Source: Dehalococcoidia bacterium (lineage in GTDB: Bacteria > Chloroflexota > Dehalococcoidia > SM23-28-2 > RBG-16-64-32). Taken from it: DNA of 64,000 bases. Below the pieces are notes generated by a model. That model had not been told where the DNA came from and searched no databases. It was given only the letters and a program-made list of their open reading frames with translations. Positions 38,395 to 39,575 of the stretch are shown piece by piece. Position 1 is the stretch's first letter; each line of letters starts with the position of its first letter. The position numbers were made by a program, and so were the translations under genes. The stretch spans positions 23,619-87,618 of the forward strand of contig JAUSFE010000140.1 of the NCBI GenBank assembly GCA_030649945.1, written 5' to 3'.

Positions 38395-38727
38395 ATGCGA
38401 CTGAAGCTCCGTAACCTCTTCGTCACCCCGGGCGCCAGACTCCTTGCCCGCGAAGGCGAGACCGTGCGCCTGAAAGTGGGGGGCATGGTCTGCGATGTCT
38501 GAGCGCGCCGCGTGCAGCGGGCCCTGGAAGGGCTGCCGGGCGTGACCTCCGCGCGAGTGGACCTGGAGACGGGCGCCGCCACGGTGGAGGGGTGGGGCGA
38601 CGCCAGCGAGGAGGGCGCCATGAGGGCCGTGCAGGGCACGGTGCTCCTGCACAGGCTCCGGGGCATCCTCTCCCGCGTTCCGCTGCTGGGCCTGCCTGCC
38701 GGTAGGCAGGGCAGGAGGCCATGGTGA
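38395..38727 (+). CDS. Candidate selenoprotein: HMA-domain protein with CxxU motif (in-frame UGA at 38500)
   Basis: MRLKLRNLFVTPGARLLAREGETVRLKVGGMVCDV[UGA]ARRVQRALEGLPGVTSARVDLETGAATVEG; hairpin GCCC-UGGAA-GGGC loop 22 nt after UGA; overlaps nfo start. Confidence 0.75.
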
Positions 38728-39575
38728 AGATAGGCGCCCACGTGGGGACGTCCGGCGGCGTGGACAAGGGCGTGGAGCGGGCGGCGGCGCTAGGCGCAGA
38801 GACCATCCAGGTCTTCAGCGGCGCGCCCCAGGCGTGGCGGCGCAAGGTCTACGGGCAGGCGGAGCTGGACGCCTACCGGTCGCGGCTGGCGGAGACGGGC
38901 ATTGGGCCGGTGTTCATCCACGGGCTCTACCTGATCAACCTGGCCTCCAGCAACCCGGAATTCCTGGCCAAGTCCTACGGCGCTCTCGTCGAAGAGATGC
39001 AGGCGGCTGCCCTCATCGGGGCCAGAGGCGTCATCTTCCACCTGGGGAGCCACAAGGGGGCCGGCTACGAGGCCTGCTTCGCGCAGGTGGTGGACTACGT
39101 GCGGCGCGTGATAGAGGCGACGCCGGAGGAAGCGTGGCTGATCCTGGAGAACAGCGCCGGCATGGGCGGTGCCATCGGCTCCCGCTTCTCGGAGCTGGGG
39201 CGCATCATCCGCGAATCCGGCAGCAAGCGGGTGAAAGTCTGCCTGGACACCCAGCACGCGTTCGCGTCCGGATACGACGTCAAGACGCGCGCGGGGCTGG
39301 ACGCAGCGCTGGCGGAATTCGACCGCGAGGTGGGCCTGGACTGCCTGGTGGCCGTGCACGCCAACGATTCGAAGTGCCCGCTGGCGGGGGGCATCGACCG
39401 CCACGAGAACATCGGCGAGGGACACATCGGCCGCGATGGGTTCGAGAACATGCTCGCGCACCCGGCGTTTGCGGAGACGCCGTTCCTGCTCGAGGTGCCG
39501 GGCTTCGACAACGAGGGGCCCGACAGGCAGAATGTCGAGATCCTGAAGACGATCAGAGCCGCCGCCGCGCGCTAG
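38721..39575 (+). CDS. nfo: Deoxyribonuclease IV
   Basis: MVKIGAHVGTSGGVDKGVERAAALGAETIQVFSGAPQAW; DTQHAFASGYD; HANDSKCPLAGGIDRHENIGEGHIG. Confidence 0.95.
   Translation: MVKIGAHVGTSGGVDKGVERAAALGAETIQVFSGAPQAWRRKVYGQAELDAYRSRLAETGIGPVFIHGLYLINLASSNPEFLAKSYGALVEEMQAAALIGARGVIFHLGSHKGAGYEACFAQVVDYVRRVIEATPEEAWLILENSAGMGGAIGSRFSELGRIIRESGSKRVKVCLDTQHAFASGYDVKTRAGLDAALAEFDREVGLDCLVAVHANDSKCPLAGGIDRHENIGEGHIGRDGFENMLAHPAFAETPFLLEVPGFDNEGPDRQNVEILKTIRAAAAR

Follow-up and report, generated by a model that had tools for sequence, protein, structure and literature searches.

A small HMA-domain protein with a predicted selenocysteine at its second metal-binding position in a Dehalococcoidia genome

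A small gene on the forward strand of the window (the whole 64,000-nucleotide stretch of DNA analyzed here), at positions 38395 to 38727, is predicted to encode an HMA-domain selenoprotein of 110 residues. Selenocysteine (Sec) would be inserted as residue 36, at an in-frame UGA codon at positions 38500 to 38502, a reading to which we assign a probability of about 0.96 on the basis of comparative sequence analysis. The fuller explanation, in which the product is a small HMA-fold protein with a Cys-x-x-Sec metal site and is the Sec form of a Cys-x-x-Cys family, is also highly probable. A sequence-only reading of this DNA had proposed the gene as a candidate selenoprotein, and that proposal was supported by the Sec machinery of the host genome, by relatives that keep the UGA, by relatives with Cys in its place, and by a SECIS-like hairpin. 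Three features by which bacterial selenoproteins are recognized in sequence data were found here: the UGA is conserved (13 UGA forms) and replaced by Cys elsewhere (18 Cys forms); selA, selB, selC, and selD are present in the genome; and, when the UGA forms were folded, a downstream hairpin with G in its apical loop was obtained, at which synonymous sites are frozen.

The reading frame extends from ATG at 38395 through the TGA at 38500 to 38502 to a stop TGA at 38725 to 38727, and the read-through product begins MRLKLRNLFVTPGARLLAREGETVRLKVGGMVCDV-U-ARRVQRALEGLPGVTSARVDLETG... With the TGA taken as Cys, this product matched the Pfam HMA family (PF00403) with an E value of 1.9e-12 and a score of 47.8 bits (gathering cutoff, 24.8) over residues 26 to 71 (positions 38470 to 38607, forward strand). 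The metal motif of the product is GMVC-DV-U, in which U corresponds to the second Cys of GMxCxxC; the read-through translation and the HMA match therefore confirmed that the TGA falls on this metal-binding residue. The domain had been described as complete, which held in part: the HMA family was matched, but only over Pfam positions 2 to 45 of 62, and the C-terminal part has diverged. Similarity across the family covers the HMA domain together with the segment N-terminal to it and, toward the C terminus, an A-V-x-x-x-V-x-L segment. As had been noticed, ORF calling splits the gene, and the standard ORF list contains only a 3' fragment of 71 residues (38512 to 38727).

An AlphaFold2 model built from a two-row alignment had a mean pLDDT of 72, with values of 80 to 90 over most of residues 11 to 80 and uncertainty at both ends. 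The model contains an HMA-like beta-alpha-beta-beta-alpha core and an additional N-terminal strand. In a fold search of the PDB, PacS, CopZ, and MerP aligned at 1.5 to 2.1 Å with target TM-scores of 0.69 to 0.80, at weak E values (none below 0.001); two archaeal RNA polymerase subunits ranked just above them with a poorer fit. A sequence-profile search of the PDB returned HMA proteins only. The product is probably a small HMA-fold protein located in the cytoplasm.

UGA forms of the gene were found in 13 genomes, each with coding sequence on both sides of the UGA: the genome of the window, four genomes of the same family, one distant member of the class, and seven Methylomirabilota. SelA is present in all 13. 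A protein search of the family placed the UGA at the same position in four genomes of another genus (g5; G009 to G012), a profile search across 396 class genomes recovered a distant-family UGA form with the motif GLLC-RL-U (G123), and a Methylomirabilota MAG with a UGA form (L031) emerged from a collection scan. Of the twelve UGA forms outside the window's genome, six (G009 to G012, G123, and L031/G396) came from protein or profile searches that did not demand a UGA. A DNA pattern detected the UGA form in 7 of 96 genomes of the L031 phylum, that of L031 included, while a reversed control pattern gave 0 matches in the 96 genomes. This pattern demanded the UGA and the amino acids A-L-E-G with free third positions, and conservation of the UGA and of A-L-E-G in the Methylomirabilota is partly by construction. 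Over 399 genomes of the window's phylum, a sample without the four g5 genomes and G123, the pattern matched the window alone; therefore, the UGA form is rare in that phylum sample. A TGA-bearing match in another genome (G035) was rejected, as its TGA is not a Sec codon but a stop lying 5' of an ordinary CopA-like start.

Among full-length relatives in the class that contain no stop, the best are Cys forms (GLVCDICA...); 18 of these were read residue by residue. The comparison with Cys homologues suggested by the sequence-only reading showed that all 18 have a Cys codon at the position of the UGA, and both Cys residues of the metal motif are retained. SelA was also found in several Cys-form genomes, so the Cys forms did not arise simply from loss of Sec decoding. 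A tree of the forms required one change between UGA and Cys, with weak support (61/88) and with G123 on a long branch.

The genome of the window (G000; 3.39 Mb in 142 contigs, 91% complete) encodes SelA (E = 3.8e-133), SelB (E = 4.9e-94), and SelD (E = 1.1e-109), as well as two genes for tRNA-Sec, both with the anticodon UCA. Absence of this machinery had been named as a ground for abandoning the Sec reading and did not hold. SelD is itself a UGA form, its in-frame TGA falling where Sec is known to occur in this protein, SCAG-U-AGK (position 997 of L039, on contig G000:C139), and Sec decoding is therefore apparently in use in this genome. The tRNA-Sec genes lie at positions 451 to 547 of L034 (G000:C61:1-2929) and 5372 to 5468 of L033, and the two copies are identical at 94 of 97 bases. 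An ORF resembling a tyrosine recombinase lies near the copy on the 2.9-kb contig C61, an arrangement suggestive of integration at selC. The SelB match (L045, G000:C32:166465-168318) lies inside an open frame that, at 986 residues, is unusually long.

Next to the UGA, the putative SECIS hairpin with the core GCCC-UGGAA-GGGC was found at positions 38521 to 38533 (forward strand), and its apical loop begins 22 nt past the UGA, at 38525, as had been claimed. A hairpin of the GCCC-UGGAR-GGGC type with GG in the loop is kept at this distance in all 13 UGA forms; in G123, the pairing is shifted to give a six-pair stem with a bulged U. In almost every one of the 13 forms, codons 7 to 10 after the UGA are GCC CTG GAR GGG (GCC, 13/13; CTG, 13/13; GGG, 12/13), with synonymous sites frozen at codons 7, 8, and 10. 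Among sequence pairs sharing an amino acid, the fraction using the same codon averaged 0.89 at codons 7 to 10 versus 0.42 elsewhere, with values of 0.24 to 0.32 at Ala1, Gly13, Val28, and Val-8. The observed mean was matched or exceeded by 0.035% of randomly drawn four-codon sets, in a test that ignores phylogeny; the neighboring codons, which share that phylogeny, are well mixed, and third positions were unconstrained by the search pattern. The hairpin sequence is mostly absent from the Cys forms, 1 of 18 of which matched a loose pattern. By these codon comparisons, synonymous freezing is confined to the predicted hairpin, as expected for a bacterial SECIS. No covariation was detected in the hairpin across the UGA forms and, because the stem core is invariant, covariation is uninformative for the SECIS. 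The folding energy is not exceptional for this GC-rich DNA (z-scores were uninformative), and an Rfam search gave no SECIS match.

These data bear on two other accounts of the UGA. If just one metagenome-type assembly is considered, a lone stop might reflect either a nonsense mutation or an error in sequencing, which would make the gene a pseudogene. The same UGA is present in 13 genomes of two lineages, with the frame intact on both sides and amino acids conserved after it, which rules out this account and leaves it a negligible probability. The sequence-only reading had argued that a random nonsense mutation would not be expected at this exact residue; a chance origin of the TGA is excluded because the UGA is conserved at the same codon in 13 genomes. 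A lack of conservation downstream, which had been listed as evidence against Sec, was not observed, since coding conservation goes on past the UGA. Alternatively, a variant tRNA or a reassigned code might decode the UGA as Cys or another residue, and Cys at the same position in relatives makes this compatible with the protein. However, UGA terminates both this gene (38725 to 38727) and the upstream TetR-like gene, the only UCA-anticodon tRNAs in the scanned stretches of the window's genome are tRNA-Sec, and SelD carries a canonical Sec UGA. Moreover, the frozen synonymous sites require an RNA signal, whereas reassignment would not. Decoding as a residue other than Sec is thus very improbable.

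The predicted selenoprotein was compared with described families. It fell below every NCBIfam cutoff: the best match, NF047957 (CopZ_AFE_1862), scored 55.9 bits (cutoff, 85), NF041115 (UxxU_metal_bind) scored 40.6 bits (cutoff, 95) against a protein whose motif is CxxU, and NF045683 (MerT/CopZ-Se) scored 18.9 bits (cutoff, 375). A 2026 inventory of 119 selenoprotein families includes the NF041115 UxxU protein, a UxxC cation ATPase, and a C/SxxU mercuric transport protein (PMC13188914), and a Sec form of MerP appeared in an earlier survey (PMC2398784). Like NF041115, which is listed in that inventory (PMC13188914) and to which it is a partial match, the window protein is a small HMA-type protein with Sec at a metal-site position; unlike NF041115, in which both ligands are Sec, it has one Sec and an extra N-terminal R-x-L-F/R-x-x-P segment. 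It shares its HMA or mercury-transport type with the MerT/CopZ fusion-like NF045683 and the Sec mercuric transport/MerP proteins (PMC2398784, PMC13188914), but it stands alone at 110 residues without the MerT membrane part of NF045683. The cation-transporting ATPase E1-E2 selenoprotein (PMC13188914) is listed as a Sec form of a heavy-metal ATPase, but it is a large membrane protein with UxxC, whereas the window protein is small with CxxU. Stand-alone HMA proteins of the CopZ metallochaperone family (NF047957) have Cys ligands and no N-terminal extension, in contrast to the Sec ligand and N-terminal extension here. By these matches, the protein is classed as a predicted selenoprotein with an HMA domain that lies outside NF041115, NF045683, and the other named families. 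A stand-alone CxxU HMA protein is absent from the 119-family inventory (PMC13188914), the literature covered being open-license papers, and the protein looks like an apparently undescribed variant of a known protein kind rather than a new kind of biology. The bacterial selenoproteome would thereby gain a well-supported stand-alone HMA CxxU family, from lineages in which this gene is cut in two by gene callers.

In the mechanism that we propose, SelB and tRNA-Sec would insert Sec at the UGA with the aid of the short SECIS hairpin downstream. As suggested by CopZ, MerP, and the CopA HMA domains, a single soft metal ion, such as Cu(I) or Hg(II), would most likely be bound at the Cys-x-x-Sec site via S and Se and then be buffered or handed on; the selenolate may tighten metal binding. 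From the fold and the motif, this metal-carrier role is somewhat favored. A different function, with the UGA still encoding Sec, would be that of a thiol-selenol redox protein on an HMA scaffold, in which CxxU cycles between the selenenylsulfide and the reduced state. In favor of such a role, redox proteins make up most of the known selenoproteins, and CxxU is common as a redox motif (PMC13188914). Against it, metal-binding HMA domains are what the fold and the GMxCxxC context correspond to, and both Cys residues are kept in the Cys forms; we regard the redox function as possible but less likely than metal carriage. The natural Sec and Cys forms of one predicted metal-binding protein make the contribution of selenium at a metal site, versus a redox site, testable.

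In the ORF list, the selenoprotein gene is followed on the same strand by nfo (endonuclease IV; 38721 to 39575), which is not part of the selenoprotein and whose start codon overlaps the end of the HMA gene (ATGGTGA). The HMA stop overlaps the nfo start in both the window and genus g5. By tblastn synteny, nfo is directly downstream in 18 of 18 Cys-form loci with enough contig and in five UGA-form loci; none was found near the G123 locus or the Methylomirabilota loci. Linkage to nfo is thus a trait of the class rather than of the Sec form. The overlap in the window and g5 would fit a regulatory switch, in which decoding of the UGA brings ribosomes to the nfo start so that Nfo synthesis tracks the selenium supply. 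This is quite improbable, given that the Methylomirabilota UGA forms are not beside nfo, that Cys forms precede nfo without any UGA, and that the protein sequence itself is conserved. The preferred reading, a metal-binding selenoprotein, could be extended with a dedicated partnership between the CxxU/CxxC HMA protein and endonuclease IV, through metal supply to or guarding of Nfo or through a response to metal or redox stress; where the UGA form overlaps nfo, translation of nfo would be coupled to Sec decoding and DNA repair would be selenium dependent. We consider this extension unlikely. The class-wide linkage with nfo suggests that metal handling and DNA repair are connected in a way that is as yet unexplored. 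The HMA gene-nfo pair is conserved across the class in both Cys and UGA forms (the window, L057 to L071 but not L072, L073, L081, and L084).
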